Below are positions 8,287-18,667 of a stretch of 64,000 bases of DNA, piece after piece (position 1 is the stretch's first letter; each line of letters starts with the position of its first letter). Origin of the DNA: a virus. Location: the IMG/VR virus record IMGVR_UViG_3300032224_000970, positions 95,684-159,683 of that record, one strand, 5' to 3'. The position numbers and the translations under genes are program-made. The notes under the pieces are model-generated. The model was given only the letters and a program-made list of their open reading frames with translations. It searched no databases and was not told the DNA's origin.

Positions 8287-9525
8287 ATGAAGTCGTTTAA
8301 GGGTTATTTACTCGAAGCCAAAGATGCCCAAGGGCATGGCTCCGATAGCGAAGGTGATAAGTTAAAGCATATTCACCATGCCGAAGATCGTCCATTGATG
8401 CATGGTCACGAAGGTTTTGAACATGCACATGGTGCGTTGAGCCAAGCCCATGAACATATGAAGGCTGGTCAAAAGAATTCAAACCTGACAATGAAGTATG
8501 ATGGATCGCCATCAGTTGTGTTTGGTCATCATCCAAAGTCTGGTAAATTTTTCGTTGCTTCAAAATCCGCATTCAATAAAGATCCAAAATTAAATTATAG
8601 TCAAGCTGACATTCAAAAGAATCATGGTCATGCTCCAGGACTTGTTCAGAAACTTGGTGCTGCTCTACAACATCTTCCAAAAGTTGCTCCAAAGAAAGGT
8701 GTTTATCAAGGTGACTTGATGCACTCGCATGATGATGTAAAGCATGATAAGAAAACAGGTAAGGCTACCTTTACACCAAACACTATTACGTATACTGCTT
8801 CTGGTGATGAAGCAAAGAAACGTGCTCAATCTAAAGTAGGTGTTGTTGTTCATCAGAAATACGAGCATGGTAAAGATAATGAGTTGCACAATATGCATGC
8901 TACTCCGCATCCTGATACTCACAACTTCGGTTCACATAGTGATGTTCATTTGCAATCAGCTGAGCATGACACCAGCAAGGTAAAGTATTCTGATAAAGAT
9001 CAGAAAGAATTTCATGGTCATATGAAAGCTGCACAAGATATTCACAGTAAGCATGGTTCAAAAATGTATGGTGCTATTCATCCTACGCATGCTGGTGAAG
9101 GTGGTCATCTTGGCACTTACATTAACTCAACTGTTCGCACTGGTGAAACGCCATCTGCAAAAGGTTTCCAACAGCATATGACTGGTCAATTTGAGAAAGG
9201 TGCACAGAAGTTGAAGTCTGAAGCAGGTCAGACTAAGAAACGTGCTGAAGGTGCTTCGCATGTTGCACATATTGAAAAGAATAAACAACACTATGAGAAT
9301 CTACTAAAGATGCATGGTCATCTAGGTAAAGCAAAGGATACATTAGTTCGCAATTTGAATCAGCATTCAGGTGGACTTGAACATCATATCGATAACAATA
9401 AAACAGATCCAGAAGGTTTCGTTATTAACCATACTCGCAATGGTAAGACTGAACCAACTAAACTTGTAAATCGTGCAGAGTTTAGTAAAGCGAATCTGTT
9501 AAAAGTAAAGGCATGGAAGAAATGA
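8287..9525 (+). CDS. Ligase-like nucleotidyltransferase with capsid-targeting-like N-terminus
   Basis: 412 residues, very rich in His and Lys. The N-terminus MKSFKGYLLE-A has the length and [I/L]-x-E end of the T4 capsid-targeting sequence. A KYDG motif (residues 70-73) followed by SPSVVFG, a GKFFVASKS strand and GVYQGDLM resembles motifs I, III and IIIa of ATP-dependent DNA/RNA ligases and capping enzymes; it looks like a family I know from T4-like aquatic phages. It could be a packaged nucleic-acid repair or RNA ligase enzyme. It overlaps the next gene by ATGA. Ligase activity is an inference from KxDG and context. Confidence 0.65.
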   Translation: MKSFKGYLLEAKDAQGHGSDSEGDKLKHIHHAEDRPLMHGHEGFEHAHGALSQAHEHMKAGQKNSNLTMKYDGSPSVVFGHHPKSGKFFVASKSAFNKDPKLNYSQADIQKNHGHAPGLVQKLGAALQHLPKVAPKKGVYQGDLMHSHDDVKHDKKTGKATFTPNTITYTASGDEAKKRAQSKVGVVVHQKYEHGKDNELHNMHATPHPDTHNFGSHSDVHLQSAEHDTSKVKYSDKDQKEFHGHMKAAQDIHSKHGSKMYGAIHPTHAGEGGHLGTYINSTVRTGETPSAKGFQQHMTGQFEKGAQKLKSEAGQTKKRAEGASHVAHIEKNKQHYENLLKMHGHLGKAKDTLVRNLNQHSGGLEHHIDNNKTDPEGFVINHTRNGKTEPTKLVNRAEFSKANLLKVKAWKK

Positions 9526-10187
9526 TATCATTCAAAGATTATATAAAAGAAGGTAAGCGTGGCTTGTGGGATAACATTCACGCTAAGAGAGAAAGAATTA
9601 AAAATGGTTCAGGTGAGCGTATGCGTAAACCTGGAAGCAAAGGTGCTCCCACTGCTGCTGACTTTAAAGCATCTCAAGAATCTTTTGAACAAACATTAAG
9701 TATGTTAGAAGAAGCAGCAAAAGCAATTGATAGTGGTGAGTATGATTACGAAGGTCAAATGGCTCGCACTCAACTTCAAACTATCTTGCGCAATTCCAAA
9801 GATTTAATTGATATGTTATCTGATGAAGATAACATGCCAGAGTGGGTTCAGTCAAAGATTACCTTGGCTCAAGACTATATTACTTGCGTAAGAGATTATC
9901 TTCAGTCTAAAGAAGAACTTGGTGAAGCAGCTACTGCAGATGCAAAAGGTTACAAGAGTGCTACTGGTGGTTTGACGCAGAAGGGTCGTGATCACTACAA
10001 CAACACAGAAGGTGGAAACCTTAAAGCACCAGTTACTACACCACCAAGCAAACTAAAGGCTGGTAGTAAAGCTGCTAATCGTCGTAAGTCTTTCTGTGCC
10101 AGAATGTCTGGTGTAGATGGTCCAATGGAGAAACCAAATGGCGAGCCAACAAGAAAGGCACTCGCACTAAGAAAGTGGAACTGCTAA
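9522..10187 (+). CDS. Head-internal-type protein with capsid-targeting-like N-terminus
   Basis: 221 residues from the ATG at 9522 (GGAAGAA just before it; an ATG 9 bases upstream is in frame). The N-terminus MISFKDYIKE-G fits an I-K-E cleavage signal, and a second LGE-A site lies in the middle. A helical central region is followed by a basic C-terminus with GLTQKGRDHYN and a RRKSFCARMSG...ALRKWNC tail, a conserved block of T4-like aquatic phage virion-type proteins. Function unknown; packaging inside the head is inference. Confidence 0.65.
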   Translation: MISFKDYIKEGKRGLWDNIHAKRERIKNGSGERMRKPGSKGAPTAADFKASQESFEQTLSMLEEAAKAIDSGEYDYEGQMARTQLQTILRNSKDLIDMLSDEDNMPEWVQSKITLAQDYITCVRDYLQSKEELGEAATADAKGYKSATGGLTQKGRDHYNNTEGGNLKAPVTTPPSKLKAGSKAANRRKSFCARMSGVDGPMEKPNGEPTRKALALRKWNC

Positions 10188-10819
10188 TGAAATCATTTAC
10201 CACGTTTATAAAAGAAGCTAAAGATGCCCAAGGGCATGGCTCAGAGAAGCATGGAGTAATGGCATTTGGACGTATGAATCCTCCAACTGCAGGACATGAA
10301 CAAGTTGTTAACAAGATGCATGAGGTTGCCAAGAAACATGGTGCAGATCACAATCTAGTTCTATCTGGCTCACATGATGCAAAGAAAAATCCACTGTCTC
10401 CAGAATCAAAAGTAAAGCATGCAAAGAATGCTTTCCCAGGAACTAATATCTCCTCTGCTAAAAAAGGAGAAACACCACTACATGCTGCTGCTAAAATGCA
10501 TGCCTCAGGTGTTCAACATTTACACGTAGTTGCTGGTTCAGATCGTCAAAAATCAACACATGATCTACTTCACAAATATAACAATGTGAAGTCTGCGCAT
10601 GGTCACTATAACTTCAAATCCATTACTGTTCATTCATCTGGTGATCGTGATCCAGATTCAGATGAGGGAACTGCTGGTGTCTCTGGTACTAAGATGCGTG
10701 AACATGCTTCAACTGGTAACAAGAAAGACTTCCATAAAAACTTACCATCGAAAATGAAGCCAGAGCATAGGGATGCTTTGTATCATGACCTACGTAGTTC
10801 TATGGGACATAAAGATTAA
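10187..10819 (+). CDS. HxGH nucleotidylyltransferase-like protein with capsid-targeting-like N-terminus
   Basis: 210 residues from the ATG at 10187, overlapping the previous stop. MKSFTTFIKE-A is followed by KDAQGHGS, identical to the segment in the 8287 protein. The body opens with FGRMNPPTAGHE, in which TAGH is the HxGH-type phosphate-binding motif of cytidylyl/adenylyl transferases, and later shows VSGTKMRE, like the ISSTxxR motif of that superfamily. Enzymes of this type make NAD, FAD or CDP-alcohols. The substrate is unknown. A second member follows at 12283. Confidence 0.65.
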   Translation: MKSFTTFIKEAKDAQGHGSEKHGVMAFGRMNPPTAGHEQVVNKMHEVAKKHGADHNLVLSGSHDAKKNPLSPESKVKHAKNAFPGTNISSAKKGETPLHAAAKMHASGVQHLHVVAGSDRQKSTHDLLHKYNNVKSAHGHYNFKSITVHSSGDRDPDSDEGTAGVSGTKMREHASTGNKKDFHKNLPSKMKPEHRDALYHDLRSSMGHKD

Positions 10820-11622
10820 TGAGCGAACTAAGTGACTTCCTTAAACTTATTGCAGAGGGTAAGAAAACAGATCCAGTTGCAGTAAAGGCGAAAGAACAAC
10901 GAGAGTATATACAAGAAGTTGTTAAGGAAGATCTCGGATCATTGTTTAGTCAATTAGCGACACTTAAGAACAAACAAAAAGAAGTACAGGTTCAAGCACC
11001 AATCGTTGAAGAGGTGTTGATAGAAAGAATCTATACAGAACCACCAACTGAACCTATTCCCGCTGCACAGGTTCACTCTACTTCTGAGATCGATAAGTAT
11101 CTCACTACAAAATCTTTTCAACAACCAAACCCAGATAAAGTTTCTCCAGAGTTAAAGGCACTTACTGAGAAAGTTAAATTCTTAGAGCAAGCAATCGGAC
11201 GTATTGCTGCAACTGGTCCAGGATCTGGTGAAGTAAACCTTCGTTGGTTAGATGATGTAAAGCGTGACACTATCTCAGATGGTCGTTGGTTAAAGTATGA
11301 TGATTCTCTTAAAAAATTCGTATTCGATGAAATCAATCCTTACGAAGTAGTATATAATACAACTCATGTTACAACTCCAACCTATACTGTTCAGGATAAT
11401 GACTTTTATATTGGAGTCGACTACGCTGGTCCAGTAACCATAAATCTACCAGTATCTGCAAATTCTGGTCGTATGTTGATCATCAAAGATGAAGATGGCG
11501 ACGCAGAAACAAACCCTATTACTGTCCTCGGCACTGTTGATAATGATGCTGGTGGATTCATAATTCAAATTGATAATGGAGCTATTCAATTGCTCTACAG
11601 AAATGGCTGGAGAATAGTATGA
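10819..11622 (+). CDS. Virion structural protein, fibre-like, with capsid-targeting-like N-terminus
   Basis: 267 residues. The N-terminus MSELSDFLKLIAE-G again ends in I-A-E. A helical/coiled-coil section (ELKALTEKVKFLEQAIGRI) leads into a beta-rich C-terminal domain (WLKYDDSLKKFVF, TVQDNDFYIGVDYAG, SGRMLIIKDEDGDA) of a kind common in appendage proteins of aquatic T4-like phages. Either a head-internal or a tail-fibre-associated protein is possible. It overlaps its neighbours on both sides (A of ATG, and 4 bases). Confidence 0.6.
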   Translation: MSELSDFLKLIAEGKKTDPVAVKAKEQREYIQEVVKEDLGSLFSQLATLKNKQKEVQVQAPIVEEVLIERIYTEPPTEPIPAAQVHSTSEIDKYLTTKSFQQPNPDKVSPELKALTEKVKFLEQAIGRIAATGPGSGEVNLRWLDDVKRDTISDGRWLKYDDSLKKFVFDEINPYEVVYNTTHVTTPTYTVQDNDFYIGVDYAGPVTINLPVSANSGRMLIIKDEDGDAETNPITVLGTVDNDAGGFIIQIDNGAIQLLYRNGWRIV

Positions 11623-12282: not shown

Positions 12283-14475
12283 ATGAAGAACTACAGAGAA
12301 CTAATAAAAGAGTTACCGTCAAATCGATTAGTCTGCACCTTTGGTGAGTTTCAACCACCCACAGCTGCTCACGAATTTCAGGTTAAGGCAGTTAAGAAAC
12401 TTGCAGAAGAGTATCGTTCTGACTACCTAGTTCTAGTAACTTCATCATTAAAAGAAGATTATCTCCCAGCTGACAAAAAGGTTCAGTATATGAACCTGAT
12501 GTTCCCAGTAACGAATATCAAGATTACTGAAGGAACCATAGAACAATCCCTAAGAGAACTAAGCAGAAAATATAAAAACTTAGTTCTTGTCATCTCCGAA
12601 GATCTTACTGAGCACTATCAGAAGATTGTCAAAAAAGCAAATCTCCCCTCTATTGAAATAATCTCCGCTGGCGATACAGACCCAGACTCGAACAAACTAT
12701 GCGAGTCAGCCAAGAAAGGTGATTACACCAAATTCAAGAAGGGTTTACCTTCCAGCCTAAGAGAACTAGACAGTCGTCGCCTGATGAATGACCTTCGTCA
12801 GAACATGGGACTGGATATGGTTAGAGAAGAAATTAAGTTTACAGTTGATGATGTTAGAGATAAGTATTTCAAAGGTGAGATATATCATATCGGAGAGATC
12901 GTTGAATCAGATGACAGCGTATATCAAATTATCAAACGTGGATCAAATCACTTACTATTGCAATCAGAAGATGGTTCCAAGGTTAGTAAGTGGATACAAG
13001 ACGTTAAAACTTCTACGAGAGAATTTATGTTAAAAGAAGGCGTAATGCAACCAACAGGAACTGACCAAGTTATTCCCGCACCTACTGCTCCTGCAGTAAA
13101 TGCGAATGGAGTTAAGTATAAAGACTTCAAGAAAAAACTTGCAGGTAAAACACCAATGCCAGAGATCGATTTAGATGATCTTGATGGTGATGGAGAACAC
13201 GATCCCGACCATCCTTCTGCGCAAGATCAGATGGCAGTTGCAGCGCAAACTTCTATCGATAAAGCAGAACCAATCAGAGTAGTTGGTGGTTTAATGCATA
13301 GCCCATTAAATGTTACCGATGATAACCATCGTCGTCGTAAGATCAACTATCATCTTGGCGAAGAAACTATTGATGAAGTATCTTCAGAATTACTTGATCG
13401 TTACAAAGAAAAAGCAAAGAAGTCTGCAGATGACTTAGCCAGCAAAGGACAATACAAGAAGTCTACCAATCGCTGGATGGGTGTAATGAAAGCAACTGGT
13501 AAGCAGATTGAAAAGACAACTGCTAATATTAAAACCAGTTTGAATAAAGAAGAAACTGAACAGCTTGATGAAGTTAAATATGATAAAGAACATGTTCGTG
13601 ATCATATTAGCACTATGCATCCAACAGTATTCAAGAAACTGTATGGTAAGTCTAAAGAAGAGATGAAACAAACTATCACTTCCGAAGAAAAGAATTATGA
13701 AGAAGAACCAACTAACCCAAATATCAAACTTCGTTCAGGTGCATTGAAGCATCATGAGAAGGGTGTTAAGTTAGATACTGAAGAGGGTTGGGAAGATCAT
13801 AAAATGAAAGATCAGAAACAACCAGTATGGGGAACAGGTACTAAACCTAAAGAACCATTAAAGGGTGTTGATAAAGTAAATGCTGCAGGACAAGAACCAC
13901 ACCCAGAAGAGTGGGAAGACTATAAAAAGAAACCTGTTAAAGAAGCACAAGAACAAAACTTTACAGATCAACAGGTAGAGCTGGATGATCTAAACGATGA
14001 AGAAATCAATCGTATGGTTGACTCTATCAAAGATGAGAACGATGTTATGGATGCATATGATGATGCCGAGTTCGGTATTGTTGATGACGAAAGTGGCGAA
14101 GAGATTCCTGAGGAAGATAAAGCTGTCAAAGAAGAAACACTTAACGAAGTACTATCTCGTGCAGAGCGTATGCGTGCAAGAGTTCGTTTTGCAAAGAGTA
14201 GAGCCAAACGTGAACGTAGTGTAAAGTTGGCTTTGAAGAGATCTTCCAGCACACAAACTATTAACAAACGTGCACGTCGTCTTGCAATCGGTTTAATGAA
14301 ACAGCGTCTACTACGTGGTAGAAATCCTTCTACTCTATCAGTTGGAGAGAAGGAACGTATTGAATCACAGATCGCAAAACGTAAAACTATTATTAATCGA
14401 ATCGCCATGAAGTTGGCTCCAAGAGTTCGCCAGATTGAGAAGGCACGTCTTTCTCATAAGAAATATACACAATAA
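12283..14475 (+). CDS. HxGH nucleotidylyltransferase-like domain fused to a long LxE-containing tail
   Basis: 730 residues from the ATG at 12283; an in-frame ATG at 12274 would add MGH. From 12283 the N-terminus reads MKNYRELIKE-L, fitting the capsid-targeting-like pattern. Residues 15-160 form a nucleotidylyltransferase-like domain (CTFGEFQPPTAAHE). An EF-hand-like DLDDLDGDGEHD follows, then a charged tail with EETIDE-V, EQLDE-V and EETLNE-V sites and a very basic C-terminus (SRAERMRARVRFAKSR). The acidic-linker/basic-module design is shared with the 14939 protein. A packaged DNA-associated protein processed by the prohead protease is the leading idea. Confidence 0.65.
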   Translation: MKNYRELIKELPSNRLVCTFGEFQPPTAAHEFQVKAVKKLAEEYRSDYLVLVTSSLKEDYLPADKKVQYMNLMFPVTNIKITEGTIEQSLRELSRKYKNLVLVISEDLTEHYQKIVKKANLPSIEIISAGDTDPDSNKLCESAKKGDYTKFKKGLPSSLRELDSRRLMNDLRQNMGLDMVREEIKFTVDDVRDKYFKGEIYHIGEIVESDDSVYQIIKRGSNHLLLQSEDGSKVSKWIQDVKTSTREFMLKEGVMQPTGTDQVIPAPTAPAVNANGVKYKDFKKKLAGKTPMPEIDLDDLDGDGEHDPDHPSAQDQMAVAAQTSIDKAEPIRVVGGLMHSPLNVTDDNHRRRKINYHLGEETIDEVSSELLDRYKEKAKKSADDLASKGQYKKSTNRWMGVMKATGKQIEKTTANIKTSLNKEETEQLDEVKYDKEHVRDHISTMHPTVFKKLYGKSKEEMKQTITSEEKNYEEEPTNPNIKLRSGALKHHEKGVKLDTEEGWEDHKMKDQKQPVWGTGTKPKEPLKGVDKVNAAGQEPHPEEWEDYKKKPVKEAQEQNFTDQQVELDDLNDEEINRMVDSIKDENDVMDAYDDAEFGIVDDESGEEIPEEDKAVKEETLNEVLSRAERMRARVRFAKSRAKRERSVKLALKRSSSTQTINKRARRLAIGLMKQRLLRGRNPSTLSVGEKERIESQIAKRKTIINRIAMKLAPRVRQIEKARLSHKKYTQ

Positions 14476-14490: not shown

Positions 14491-14937
14491 ATGAATGAAT
14501 TAGTAGCAGCAATGAGAATCGTACTGGCGAATAATTTCGTCATGTACTTCAGAGCGCATTCCTACCACTGGAACGTAGAAGGTATTGAGTTTAGCCAATA
14601 TCATGACTTCTTTGGAGATCTATACAACGAACTTTTTGGTGCTGCAGATACAATAGCAGAAGAGATTCGTGCCCTAGATTCTTATGCTCCAATTAGCCTT
14701 ATGGAAATGTATAACTATAAGACTATCGAAGAGGATAGTACCAGAACTGTCCTAATCGCTGATATGTTGACCAAACTACAAGATTCTAACAATAAAGTTC
14801 TCGAAAGCCTAAATAAAGCATATGAGTTAGCAAATTCCGCAAAGGAATTGGGTCTCGCAAACTTTCTCCAGGATAGAATGGATAAACATAAGAAACATGG
14901 TTGGATGATTCGTGCCAGCCTAAAGAAGGTTGGATAA
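14491..14937 (+). CDS. dps: Dps-like ferritin
   Basis: 148 residues with the Dps ferroxidase signature: H26-W27-N-V-E-G, then H38, D53 and E57 in the LYNELFGAADTIAEEIRAL helix. Dps proteins form 12-mers that oxidise and store iron and, in many bacteria, bind and protect DNA. Length is close to that of bacterial Dps, so it looks intact. It lies between two proteins with capsid-targeting-like N-termini but has no such signal itself. It may shield DNA from Fe/H2O2 damage or hold iron for the phage Fe enzymes. Confidence 0.88.
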   Translation: MNELVAAMRIVLANNFVMYFRAHSYHWNVEGIEFSQYHDFFGDLYNELFGAADTIAEEIRALDSYAPISLMEMYNYKTIEEDSTRTVLIADMLTKLQDSNNKVLESLNKAYELANSAKELGLANFLQDRMDKHKKHGWMIRASLKKVG

Positions 14938-14938
14938 T

Positions 14939-17380
14939 ATGAATTTTAAACAATTTACTGCAAAACTTAATGAATCCGCTACGGAGTTGGACAAACATAT
15001 ATCTGATTTTTCTAAAGGTGTTAAGTCCTCAGCTGCAAAACACTCTACATACAAAAGTGGTGGTGGTAAGATTCATAACATGAAGCATGTTGAAACTGAC
15101 TCTGATCATCAGAAAGTATTTGACCATCTAAAGAAGATGGGTTATAAAAAGACTTCTGGATATGATCCAAAGCCAAATCAGTTTGATATGCATCACAATC
15201 GTGATTCAATGACTTCAAAGAGCGATCCTGTTCACCATTCATCTGGTGTTTCTGCTCATATTGAACAAGAACATGGTGGTAAAATGAAAGTCCACTTTAC
15301 TCATCGTCATATGAAAGAAGAAGTAGAGTTAGACGAAGCAACTACTGGTGCTACTAAGTTGGTGCATACAAGAAAAGGTGCTGATGGTGCCAAGTATCAC
15401 ATTATGCAAGACTCTCCTACCGATTATTCTGTTCATAGAGAACATAAAGGTAAGACTACTCATATCGATACTTACAGTTCTTTACATAGAGCAAAGTCTG
15501 TTCTAGATAACGAAGTTAAAGAAGAAGTAGAGTTAGACGAAGCCACTGTTAATACTAAAAAGTATTCATGGGGAACTATGAAGACTGTGCATCATGGCGC
15601 TGACTTCTCAATTCCTTTACATCCTGAACATCACCAAGCTATCGCTAAGTTAAAAGATGAACAGGAACATCACTTCAAAGATGAAACAGGTCGTCATTGG
15701 ACTGCTCGTCGTAAGGGTGAAGATGTTCATTTCCAAGGTGCTAATGGTGGTAGTTCTACTAAAGTCCCACATTCAACTATGTCCGAAGAAGTTGAATTGG
15801 ATGAAGATATTTCTAAAATGTCAACTGACAAGTTGAAAAAACATTGGGATACTCATAAAGATCAAACTGGTGCATCACCTGTTTTCGCAGCCCAACTTAA
15901 AAAAGTTGCTAAAGAGTTGGCGAAACGTAAAGCATTAAACAAAGAAGAAACAGAATTAGATGAGGTATTAAATCCATCTATGGGTGCTGGCGAATACATC
16001 AAAGATTTTCAAAAATCTGATGCACCTCAATTTAAAGGTAAATCAAAGGAGAAAAAACGTATGATGGGAATTGCCGCATACCTACAAGCCAAACGTGATA
16101 TGAAAGAACAAGCACCTGTTGCTCCAACTATTGATAGAAAATATATCAAGGGAACTCCAGAGAACAAAGCGCATAAAGAAAAGAACAAACCGATCAATGG
16201 TCATCCAACCAATAAGATGAAAGAAGAAGTTGAAATGGATGAAGCATTTATCAATGGTCGTGAGTATGCATCACATGGTTTAATGCACCCTGATCATGCT
16301 AAGATGGATATTCATCAGCCAGCTAATCGAGAAGTTGACTTCTATGCTAGTAAAACTGGCAACAAGATGTCTGGTAAAGTTATGAAGAATGATGGTAAAC
16401 AAGTCCACATTCAAGCACATAAGGAACTGGGAGATGGTAAATTGCATAAATTTAAAGTAACGCCACACTTACCAAAATCAACTAATGAAGAAGTTGATTA
16501 TATTGAAGAACTGAATAGTTCTGATATTGCTAAAATCCATAGCGACGCAGCAGCGCATCATGCAGCTACCCTTGCAAAGAAACCTGAGCAAAAACCAAAA
16601 AGCATGTTGGACAAAGTTAAAGATACTTGGGCAAAAGCAGACCCAAAGAAATATAAGAAGTATTACGCCAACGAAGAAACTAAGAAGCAAGATGCTCCAT
16701 TTGATGGACCATATAAAAAGACTCCAGGTTCTACTACCGACAAGTCTGGTGCTGTTCATACACCAATGTCACGTGCAAGACATCTAGCACGTATGGCTAT
16801 GCAAAAGAAAATGAAAGAAGAGTTTGACGTAGAGATCGATGACGCATTAGCAGATTCATTGGTTGAAACTGTTCTTGATGAAAACATCTGGTTGGATGAA
16901 AATCTTGTTGGTGGTCAAAAGAAACTTGACAAAAACAACAATGGTAAACTAGATGCTGAAGATTTCAAGAAACTACGCAAAGAAGAAAAAGAATGTCCTG
17001 ACTGCCACAAGCCAATGAGTAAGTGCGAGTGCAGTATGAATGAGTCAATTGACTTTGATGATGAAGGTAATTTGGTTGTAGAGAAAATTTCTTACTCCAA
17101 CTTCATCAGAAATCTTCAAGAAATTAAACTATCCGATCTTCCAGTTCGTAAAGTAACTGGTCGTGCTTATGGCGGTGGCGCACAGAAAGATGCACCTGAG
17201 CATGATGAGGATGATGACAAACCGAAAGCGAAACCAGAACCAGCTGAAAAGCGTGGTCGTGGTAGACCTGTTGGTTCTAAATCTGGCGCCAATCAAAAGG
17301 TAACGAGCGGAACTAAACGCAGCGGTGTTGACTACACTGGTTACAAATTACATCTGCCAAACACAAATAAATCTTATTAA
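14939..17380 (+). CDS. 813-residue putative head-internal polyprotein with repeated LDE sites
   Basis: Starts at the ATG at 14939 (a TTG 9 bases upstream is in frame). The N-terminus MNFKQFTAKLNE-S fits a prohead-protease signal. His/Lys-rich modules are then separated by near-identical acidic linkers of the form K-E-E-V-E-L-D-E: LDE at residues 131-133, 199-201, 287-289, 340-342, MDE at 433-435 and IEE at 522-524, usually followed by A, D, V or L. The C-terminus carries an EF-hand-like loop (DKNNNGKLDAEDF, from 664), a CPDC...CEC zinc-type cluster (686-698) and an AT-hook-like GRGRP (about 773-777). The T4 prohead protease cuts after [I/L]-x-E, so this could be a polyprotein matured into DNA-binding peptides in the head. 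Function is inference. Confidence 0.7.
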   Translation: MNFKQFTAKLNESATELDKHISDFSKGVKSSAAKHSTYKSGGGKIHNMKHVETDSDHQKVFDHLKKMGYKKTSGYDPKPNQFDMHHNRDSMTSKSDPVHHSSGVSAHIEQEHGGKMKVHFTHRHMKEEVELDEATTGATKLVHTRKGADGAKYHIMQDSPTDYSVHREHKGKTTHIDTYSSLHRAKSVLDNEVKEEVELDEATVNTKKYSWGTMKTVHHGADFSIPLHPEHHQAIAKLKDEQEHHFKDETGRHWTARRKGEDVHFQGANGGSSTKVPHSTMSEEVELDEDISKMSTDKLKKHWDTHKDQTGASPVFAAQLKKVAKELAKRKALNKEETELDEVLNPSMGAGEYIKDFQKSDAPQFKGKSKEKKRMMGIAAYLQAKRDMKEQAPVAPTIDRKYIKGTPENKAHKEKNKPINGHPTNKMKEEVEMDEAFINGREYASHGLMHPDHAKMDIHQPANREVDFYASKTGNKMSGKVMKNDGKQVHIQAHKELGDGKLHKFKVTPHLPKSTNEEVDYIEELNSSDIAKIHSDAAAHHAATLAKKPEQKPKSMLDKVKDTWAKADPKKYKKYYANEETKKQDAPFDGPYKKTPGSTTDKSGAVHTPMSRARHLARMAMQKKMKEEFDVEIDDALADSLVETVLDENIWLDENLVGGQKKLDKNNNGKLDAEDFKKLRKEEKECPDCHKPMSKCECSMNESIDFDDEGNLVVEKISYSNFIRNLQEIKLSDLPVRKVTGRAYGGGAQKDAPEHDEDDDKPKAKPEPAEKRGRGRPVGSKSGANQKVTSGTKRSGVDYTGYKLHLPNTNKSY

Positions 17381-17392
17381 GGAGAAACAAAA

Positions 17393-18667
17393 ATGGCATT
17401 ATGGGGAAACAAAGATAGTAAGACTGCTTCTGGTACTGTAAGCATCGCATCAACTGGTGTCGTTACTGGGTCTAGCACTTCATTTCTATCTCAAGCAAGA
17501 ATCGGTGATATTCTAACAGCGAATAGCGTTGAATATCAAATCGTAACTATTACTAGCAATACTGTTGCTAAAGTAATTATGGGACGCAACAATGGTAATG
17601 GATCAGTTACTACTTGTTCTGCTCAATCCTATACTCTATCTGAAAAACCAACATTCGTTCCACACGAATCACGTTCTTCAAGCAGCGACTCTGGTGATTC
17701 AGCAGTAGTATATGGTGTTGACGCTACTGAAGCAACTGCTGGTGGCGATAACGTCTCTGCAGTTTCTGTTGGTACTATCGCTGGTACTCGTTACCTTGGT
17801 ACTGCTCCAGCAGTAACATTCTCTGGTGGTGGTGGTTCTTCTGCTGCAGCTACTGCAACTATCTCTGGTGGTGCAGTTACAGCAATTACTGTTACTAACA
17901 CTGGTACTTCTTATACTTCAGCACCAACTGTTACTGTTGCTAAACCTGCTCGTATTATTCCTACTTCTGGTATCACTATTGGTACTGATACTGTTGCTTA
18001 CACTGCACACGGCTTAGTTGCTGGTGAAGCAGTTAAGTATAACAATGGTGGATCTACTACAGCTACTGGTTTAACTTCTGGTACAACTTACTATGTGGCT
18101 ACTGCTGGTTTGACTGCTAACGCATTCGAAGTTAAAGCAGCAACAACTACTGGTACTCTTGCAGCTACTGTTGCTACTTCTGGTACTGCTGGTCAATTTA
18201 CTTGCGGTGCTTCTACTCTTGCTGCTTCTGATCGTGTTACTATCACTGGTACAAATACTGGTACAGGTACTATCACTGGTTATGCATCTGGTACAACTTA
18301 TAAAGTTTCTGCAGTTACTGGTACTTCACCAAGCGTAACTGGTTTCACTTTAACAACTGAGGCTGGTTCTGCTTTAACTACTACTGCTGGTACTTTGGTT
18401 GGTTTGACTTATACAACTGAAACAGTTATCGATATCTCTGGTACTGGTAACAATGCTCAGTACTTTGAAATCCAAGCTGCAGCTGATCAAGCAATCGCTA
18501 CTGCTGCACTAGGTGATGGTGCTGTTGGTGGTTCACAGCATGCTGGTTGGGTTCGTCGTACTGTTGGTACTGGTGGTCGTGCTGGTCGTGTTCAGTATGA
18601 AACTTTAGTTGCCATGGGTTCAATCACTGGTGACGCAGCTGACGATATCGCTTTCAAAGATAGTTAA
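17393..18667 (+). CDS. Virion structural/decoration protein with Thr-Gly-Ala-rich insert
   Basis: 424 residues. The N-terminus (MALWGNKDSKTASGTV) and the C-terminus (QHAGWVRRTVGTGGRAG then YETLVAMGSITGDA) match a conserved head or decoration protein of T4-like aquatic phages. A long central insert of Gly, Thr, Ala and Ser-rich beta repeats (SGTTYYVATAGL, SGTTYKVSAVTG) separates them, like Ig-like or fibre-type modules. A GGAG ribosome site precedes the ATG and a strong terminator follows, so it is probably highly expressed late. Confidence 0.72.
   Translation: MALWGNKDSKTASGTVSIASTGVVTGSSTSFLSQARIGDILTANSVEYQIVTITSNTVAKVIMGRNNGNGSVTTCSAQSYTLSEKPTFVPHESRSSSSDSGDSAVVYGVDATEATAGGDNVSAVSVGTIAGTRYLGTAPAVTFSGGGGSSAAATATISGGAVTAITVTNTGTSYTSAPTVTVAKPARIIPTSGITIGTDTVAYTAHGLVAGEAVKYNNGGSTTATGLTSGTTYYVATAGLTANAFEVKAATTTGTLAATVATSGTAGQFTCGASTLAASDRVTITGTNTGTGTITGYASGTTYKVSAVTGTSPSVTGFTLTTEAGSALTTTAGTLVGLTYTTETVIDISGTGNNAQYFEIQAAADQAIATAALGDGAVGGSQHAGWVRRTVGTGGRAGRVQYETLVAMGSITGDAADDIAFKDS

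Follow-up and report, generated by a model that had tools for sequence, protein, structure and literature searches.

A mosaic protein with repeated prohead-protease-type linkers in an uncultivated T4-like phage, a putative multi-module internal-head precursor

Organization of the gene cluster and of the mosaic protein

The DNA analysed here (the window, 64,000 nucleotides) comprises bases 95684-159683 of an IMG/VR virus record of 159,683 bases and belongs to an uncultivated, T4-like phage. Between positions 8287 and 17380 it contains six neighbouring genes with CTS-like starts, all on the plus strand and named here by their first base (a slash marks the putative cut): a DUF6267 protein (8287-9525, CTS MKSFKGYLLE/A), a protein with the CTS MISFKDYIKE/G and a C-terminal DUF6321 module after LGE/A (9522-10187), a second cytidylyltransferase-like protein (10187-10819, CTS MKSFTTFIKE/A), a protein with a weaker CTS-like start MSELSDFLKLIAE/G (10819-11622), a cytidylyltransferase-like protein with the CTS MKNYRELIKE/L, the sites EETIDE, EETEQLDE and EETLNE and a very basic RARR tail (12283-14475), and the mosaic gene itself (14939-17380). 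A Dps/ferritin-like protein without CTS (14491-14937, plus strand; Pfam Ferritin, E=3e-23) is situated between the two mosaic genes. The two cytidylyltransferase-like proteins are paralogues, each with a CTS. His makes up more than 10% of the 8287 and 10187 proteins, which are the genome's most His-rich among proteins of at least 150 residues. DUF6267, found in 465 phage records, exhibits a KWDG or KYDG motif in its relatives (here MKYDGSPSV) that is reminiscent of the KxDG of nucleotidyltransferases and ligases; judged by its sequence, the CTS-bearing DUF6267 protein could be an injected enzyme. Downstream, a protein beginning MALWG (17393-18667) appears by eye to be related to gp063 of the Caulobacter phage Cr30 and to S-SZBM1 gp136, which published mass spectrometry places in the virion (PMC9146016).

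The mosaic gene encodes 813 residues from an ATG at 14939, around 9 nt 5' of which an AAGAAGG Shine-Dalgarno sequence is found, to a stop at 17380; an alternative TTG start at 14930 would yield 816 residues. The CTS-like N-terminus MNFKQFTAKLNE/S (14939-14974) is nearest to that of T4 IPI (MKTFKEFT...ITE/A), its register being off by one residue. Linkers 1 and 2 (15314-15337, residues 126-133, and 15518-15541, residues 194-201) both read KEEVELDE/A, and the second passes directly into the KYSW module (15542-15781), a predicted alpha+beta domain (pLDDT 85), at the end of which linker 3, SEEVELDE/D, is situated (15782-15805, residues 282-289). Linker 4, KEETELDE/V (15941-15964, residues 335-342), is followed by the APQF module (VLNPSMGAGEYIKDFQKSDAPQFKGKSK..., 15965-16108), and linker 5, KEEVEMDE/A (16220-16243, residues 428-435), by the HREF module (FINGREYASHGLMHPDHAK..., 16244-16468) and the degenerate linker 6, EEVDYIEE/L (16487-16510, residues 517-524); linkers 3, 5 and 6 have AF2 pLDDT values below 50. 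The MSRA module (APFDGPYKK...HTPMSRARHLARMAMQKKMKEE, 16691-16822) lacks an L/I-x-E site upstream. A cluster of the sites LVE, VLDE and WLDE (16865-16900, within residues 641-654) lies ahead of the EF-hand-like module NLVGGQKKLDKNNNGKLDAEDFKKLRKEE (16901-16987), which is followed by a Cys cluster read from the sequence (CPDCHKPMSKCEC, 16988-17035), by an internal CTS-like stretch ISYSNFIRNLQE/I (17087-17122), at the same place of which a relative locus (L002) has MKSYKDFVQSLNE/Y, and by a conserved, AT-hook-like C-terminal module (KRGRGRPxGSKSGA...DYTGYKLHLPN, 17246-17377).

The original prediction, made from the sequence of the window, had described near-identical acidic linkers in the mosaic protein and in the tail of the 12283 protein, and both observations hold. 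The strict motif (K/S)EE(V/T)E(L/M)DE occurs five times in the 813 residues, compared with none in 2000 shuffles, and a looser one, EEx(1-4)[LIM]xE, six times, compared with a shuffle mean of 0.03. When the whole proteome was scanned with the looser motif, six copies were found in the mosaic protein, four in gp22, three each in the gp68-position protein and the 12283 protein and at most one in any other; the 12283 protein thus does carry linkers. The linkers are also repeated as DNA (46 nt, 83% identical). Concerning the C-terminal part, the Cys cluster (CPDC...CEC) and the GRGRP noticed earlier are present, the latter inside the C-terminal module, which is found in 51 related ORFs, whereas the EF-hand-like loop stands in part: by Pfam it is weak (EF-hand_1, E=0.004, 17 bits against a curated cut-off of 25.4), yet it recurs as a module in 85 related ORFs. 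Besides this weak match, Pfam and PHROG searches with the 813-residue protein returned no family, and none above the Pfam cut-off.

CTS-like N-termini, head protease and head association

In T4, positions 4 and 7 of the CTS serve targeting and positions 8 and 10 processing (PMC9026906). T4 IPII and IPIII start with MKTYQEFIAE/A and IPI with MKTFKEFTSTTTPVSTITE/A (read from NC_000866). A test for aromatic or hydrophobic residues at 4 and 7, I or L at 8 and E at 10 is matched at all four positions by genes 8287, 9522, 10187 and 12283, and the start of gene 14939 is, like that of IPI, off by one residue (F3, F6, then L10-N-E12). Since the first CTS regular expression had been drawn up after the N-termini were seen, the comparison was repeated with the T4 internal-protein N-termini as a fixed query, and the top three of the 208 proteins of the genome (G000) all lay in the cluster; the remainder of G000 served as control, because the neighbouring ORFs in the relatives' loci carry CTSs too and are useless for this purpose. 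CTS-like sequences also begin the corresponding cytidylyltransferases of P-SSM2 (MKSFSQFLTE/T), S-CREM2 (MKNFSSFLTE/A), P-TIM68 (MKSFTSFFTE/A), SynMITS9220M01 (MKNFFQFLSE/A), S-SM1 (MKKFSAFLNE/A), S-SZBM1 (MRFRQFIIE/A), Melnitz (MKKFSEIIE/A) and DLP6 (MKNIKDILE/A); the corresponding proteins of HTVC008M and Cr30 exhibit no CTS-like start.

The genes of the portal, the gp68-position protein, gp21, gp22 and gp23 are situated outside the window (G000 62710-69117), among them a gp21-type prohead protease (G000 66126-66587; PF03420, E=2.1e-40). The genes for gp22 and the gp68-position protein are part of this portal-protease-capsid block; the 813-residue protein is encoded outside it, after UvsX and a helicase. 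Pelagibacter phage HTVC008M and Methylophilales phage Melnitz have gp23 proteins with 63-64% identity to the gp23 of this phage, the N-terminus of which (...ALFE/AAPAN) aligns with that of T4 (...FLTE/AEIGG); gp22 begins MSIEQKIAEMLAESRAKELDE/AKF and has an LDE/A. With LDE/A in gp22 and LFE/A in gp23, the presumed sites of the head proteins and the linkers share the same L-x-E/A form. T4 gp21 cleaves after L/I-x-E, gp22 being cut at a Glu-Ala bond, and the T4 core proteins are cleaved into several fragments that mostly exit the head (PMC9026906). The linker ends are of prohead-protease type, as had been proposed, with L/I-x-E sites at module boundaries and a gp21 encoded in the genome.

The supposed association with the head is likewise backed by the T4-type CTS N-termini, by this gp21 and by virion mass spectrometry of syntenic relatives. 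The S-SM1 cytidylyltransferase was reported in virions (PMC3037559), and so were gp139/140 of S-SZBM1, i.e., the cytidylyltransferase and gp139, encoded by the gene that follows in transcriptional order (PMC9146016), and gp154/155/156/160 of S-CREM2, the cytidylyltransferase included, for which the authors consider that such virion proteins may merely co-purify (PMC10665884). S-CREM2 gp160 is a linker mosaic, with EENLEE/KKNCWPGYE... and KEETEISE/GKKDACYHKV.... In Cr30 the layout is similar (cytidylyltransferase gp066, gp065, gp064 of 682 residues, gp063), and gp064 possesses four LxE/(I/V)S modules; in Agrobacterium phage Atu_ph07, a gene with the APQF module directly adjoins the S77-like prohead gene gp204. 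As separate observations, gp160 (L020 13843-14736) holds a copy of the capsid N-arm (GFTGAAAPEGPVAGYDP; PHROG 696, major head protein, E=5e-10), that is, of the stretch right after the gp23 cut, and gp064 (L265 2762-4810), from a cultured phage, exhibits four SKxTLxxYxxKA repeats, each behind an LxE site.

Modules and boundary sites in related reading frames

Searched by tblastn against phage isolates, the 813-residue protein found a sole match, P-TIM68, and the KYSW module alone none. Single-module scans of IMG/VR returned at least 554 (APQF), 338 (MSRA) and 76 (KYSW) related contig stretches. Profiles of six modules (KYSW, APQF, MSRA, HREF, EF and C-terminal) match 227 non-identical ORFs, 103 of them with at least two modules; runs of at least three modules come in 38 different orders, and ten module pairs occur in both orders. 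One of the probes used was an invented composite of common modules and served only to find loci. Among seven mosaic relatives scanned, six had no enzyme match, and L006 had a cytidylyltransferase-like match just below the cut-off. The APQF module bears the label DUF6321 in GenBank, an identity rejected by Pfam, which assigns DUF6321 to another module of this type.

A [LIVMF]xE site at most two residues from where the module boundary is expected was found at the start of HREF in 26 of 26 contexts, of APQF in 83 of 97, of EF in 56 of 67 and of KYSW in 42 of 56, whereas random positions give 2.9, 10.3, 8.1 and 6.4; the contexts were de-duplicated by sequence, yet are related by descent and so not independent. 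Another five families, drawn from other proteins, were examined over the nine residues upstream and exhibit such sites in 42 of 43 (SKTL), 39 of 41 (DUF5824), 55 of 61 (RARR tail), 47 of 53 (DUF6321) and 30 of 49 contexts (CWxGYK), compared with 6.3, 5.7, 8.8, 8.0 and 8.2 at random positions. APQF and SKTL are preceded by a Glu at P1 in 100% of the cases, EF and the RARR tail in 91-92%. The nine families thus mostly begin directly after an L/I-x-E-like site. Linker retention in homologues, on which the original prediction had made itself dependent beforehand, is seen in these boundary sites across the related ORFs, and the proposed layout of a multi-peptide precursor recurs there as shuffled modules with protease-type sites between them.

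The same modules are found behind a CTS or behind an internal linker. HREF follows the CTS MKSFLEFQKLDE/VNHREHA or the linker KEEVQLDE/ANHREFA, APQF the CTS MKSLKEFISQINE/VLKPS or the linker NKEETELDE/VLNPS, KYSW the CTS MKNFKELTAQLAE/AQVSTRKYSW or the linker KEEVELDE/ATVNTKKYSW, and EF the CTS MKSYKEILE/ALKGKQHK or the internal KKVAE/ELKGDQHK, the EF module being preceded by the site in 20 of the 21 cases where it is N-terminal. Some modules, such as DUF6321 (MKTFKQFVTEEYLDE/KSPAWQ..., 106 residues) and DUF5824 (MKFKEFLDE/KADAAL..., 84 residues), also occur alone, as small genes headed by a CTS. The CTS end, a known gp21 cut in T4, is hence interchangeable with the linkers, and this is the strongest argument that the internal linkers are cut too.

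Proposed maturation, alternatives and comparison with known systems

We consider it probable that the 813-residue protein serves as an internal-head (core) precursor of mosaic build, recruited by its CTS and cut by gp21 at the linkers into modules that stay with the DNA; the cutting itself is very likely. The CTS-like N-terminus would recruit the protein into the gp22 scaffolding core, where the gp21-type protease would cut after the Glu of L/I-x-E, i.e., at the N-terminal LNE and at the acidic (K/S)EExE(L/M)DE linkers, and would free several small module proteins, each with an acidic tail at its C-terminus. These may stay with the packaged DNA and would probably be ejected into the host like the T4 internal proteins. 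Gene 14939 would then be one member of a cluster of CTS-bearing cargo genes, and the linkers would double as boundaries for module exchange between phages.

Some observations count against cutting, either altogether or at particular places. The MSRA module has no L/I-x-E-like site upstream in its contexts, residues 436-648 comprise several modules with few sites, the P2 residue of the linkers is commonly Asp, seen at that position in none of the T4 sites considered, and the N-terminal LNE lies within a confident helix of the AF2 model. In the full-length model (mean pLDDT 55.6), folded islands are situated between low-confidence stretches, and since half of the residues fall below 50, it says little about the exposure of the linkers.

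It is unlikely that the protein is instead packaged uncut and ejected as a single chain of domains, its linkers acting as acidic, flexible tethers or as repeats that bind the core, and also as recombination joints. The modules do shuffle at the linkers, and the repeated linker DNA could promote exchange, but flexible tethers would require neither a fixed placement of L/I (P3) and Glu (P1) ahead of the module nor interchangeability with the CTS end.

Rather less probable is the view, held in the original prediction, that every module is a DNA-binding peptide which neutralises and packs phage DNA. The described richness in His and Lys applies to the protein as a whole (6.3% and 14.3%, compared with 1.8% and 6.6% in the proteome), an AT-hook-like GRGRP exists, the RARR tail of the 12283 protein is very basic, histone-like stretches are found in S-SZBM1 gp139 and S-SM1 191, and in T4 internal proteins, lysine residues make contacts with the phosphates of DNA (PMC3012670). 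Cuts at the CTS and the LDE/MDE sites would, however, release fragments of 12, 121, 68, 88, 53, 93, 213, 6 and 159 residues, of which those longer than 50 have predicted pI values of 8.0, 6.3, 6.4, 9.0, 9.5, 8.5 and 8.8; two are thus net acidic and others only mildly basic, and with charges so mixed a common neutralising role is unsupported. Basic parts do exist, in the C-terminal module with its GRGRP and in the tail of the 12283 protein. The KYSW module, modelled by AF2 on 55 homologues, has a confident fold (pLDDT 85) followed by a disordered linker, and a fold search against the PDB gave no confident nucleic-acid-binding match (best match Whirly, E=0.06, TM 0.42), while BFVD returned essentially the same module only. 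By analogy with T4, injected counter-defence or other cargo may be at least as likely as DNA neutralisation, and as a guess, the released modules might serve in this way.

A role as scaffold only, like T4 gp22, gp67 and gp68, with pieces leaving the head before DNA packaging, is very improbable: the motif is common to gp22 and the gp68-position protein, and in T4 most fragments of the core leave the head (PMC9026906), but the modules are conserved, one with a confident predicted fold, the cluster includes enzymes (cytidylyltransferases, Dps/ferritin-like), and S-CREM2 gp160, with similar linkers, is found in mature virions.

For the preferred reading, a precursor cut at its linkers, a wider form can be envisaged, the chances of which we regard as evenly balanced: T4-like aquatic phages might use cassettes as a general scheme, short CTS and L/I-x-E signals making it possible to join dozens of small injected modules into polyproteins, to rearrange them and to free them through the head protease. 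This would be a phage counterpart of the polyproteins of eukaryotic viruses, by which a single virion is loaded with many peptides of different kinds. If the proposal is true, CTS plus L/I-x-E constitutes a sequence rule by which a large set of unannotated proteins of marine and freshwater T4-like phages can be predicted to be head cargo and their mature ends defined (modules in at least 554, 338 and 76 contigs), the question of what these phages inject becomes directly testable, and the repeated finding of cytidylyltransferases and neighbouring hypothetical proteins in cyanophage virion proteomes is explained.

CTS and gp21 cleavage are already known from T4; for the shuffled polyprotein format, no description was found in the open-access papers searched, and a paper beyond that scope may exist. 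The 813-residue protein resembles both the T4 internal proteins and the core proteins that are cut several times, brought together in one chain of many shuffled modules. With IPI, IPII, IPIII and Alt it shares a CTS-like N-terminus ending in L/I-x-E, a cognate S77 protease and variable cargo behind a conserved signal, whereas the T4 internal proteins consist of a single module with one N-terminal cut, and the present protein has many modules in shuffled order and at least five internal sites at module boundaries. T4 gp22, gp67 and gp68 are likewise divided into several fragments by L/I-x-E cuts, and an LDE/A site is common to the gp22 of this phage; they are scaffold, however, the fragments of which mostly leave the head, whereas the modules here are conserved and partly folded. 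The cleaved head and ejection proteins of phiKZ, SPN3US and 201phi2-1 exhibit several cuts after Glu per protein (e.g., SPN3US gp53 and gp54; PMC10052503), but there the extra sites split propeptides around one mature protein, and the motif is S/A-x-E or A-x-E. Polyvalent proteins, including P1 DarA and DdrB (PMC5512222), are also multi-domain, mosaic and virion-delivered and have been likened to viral polyproteins; their enzymatic domains are large, and a peptidase is often embedded in the protein, whereas the protein described here consists of small modules and would rely on the phage's own head protease.
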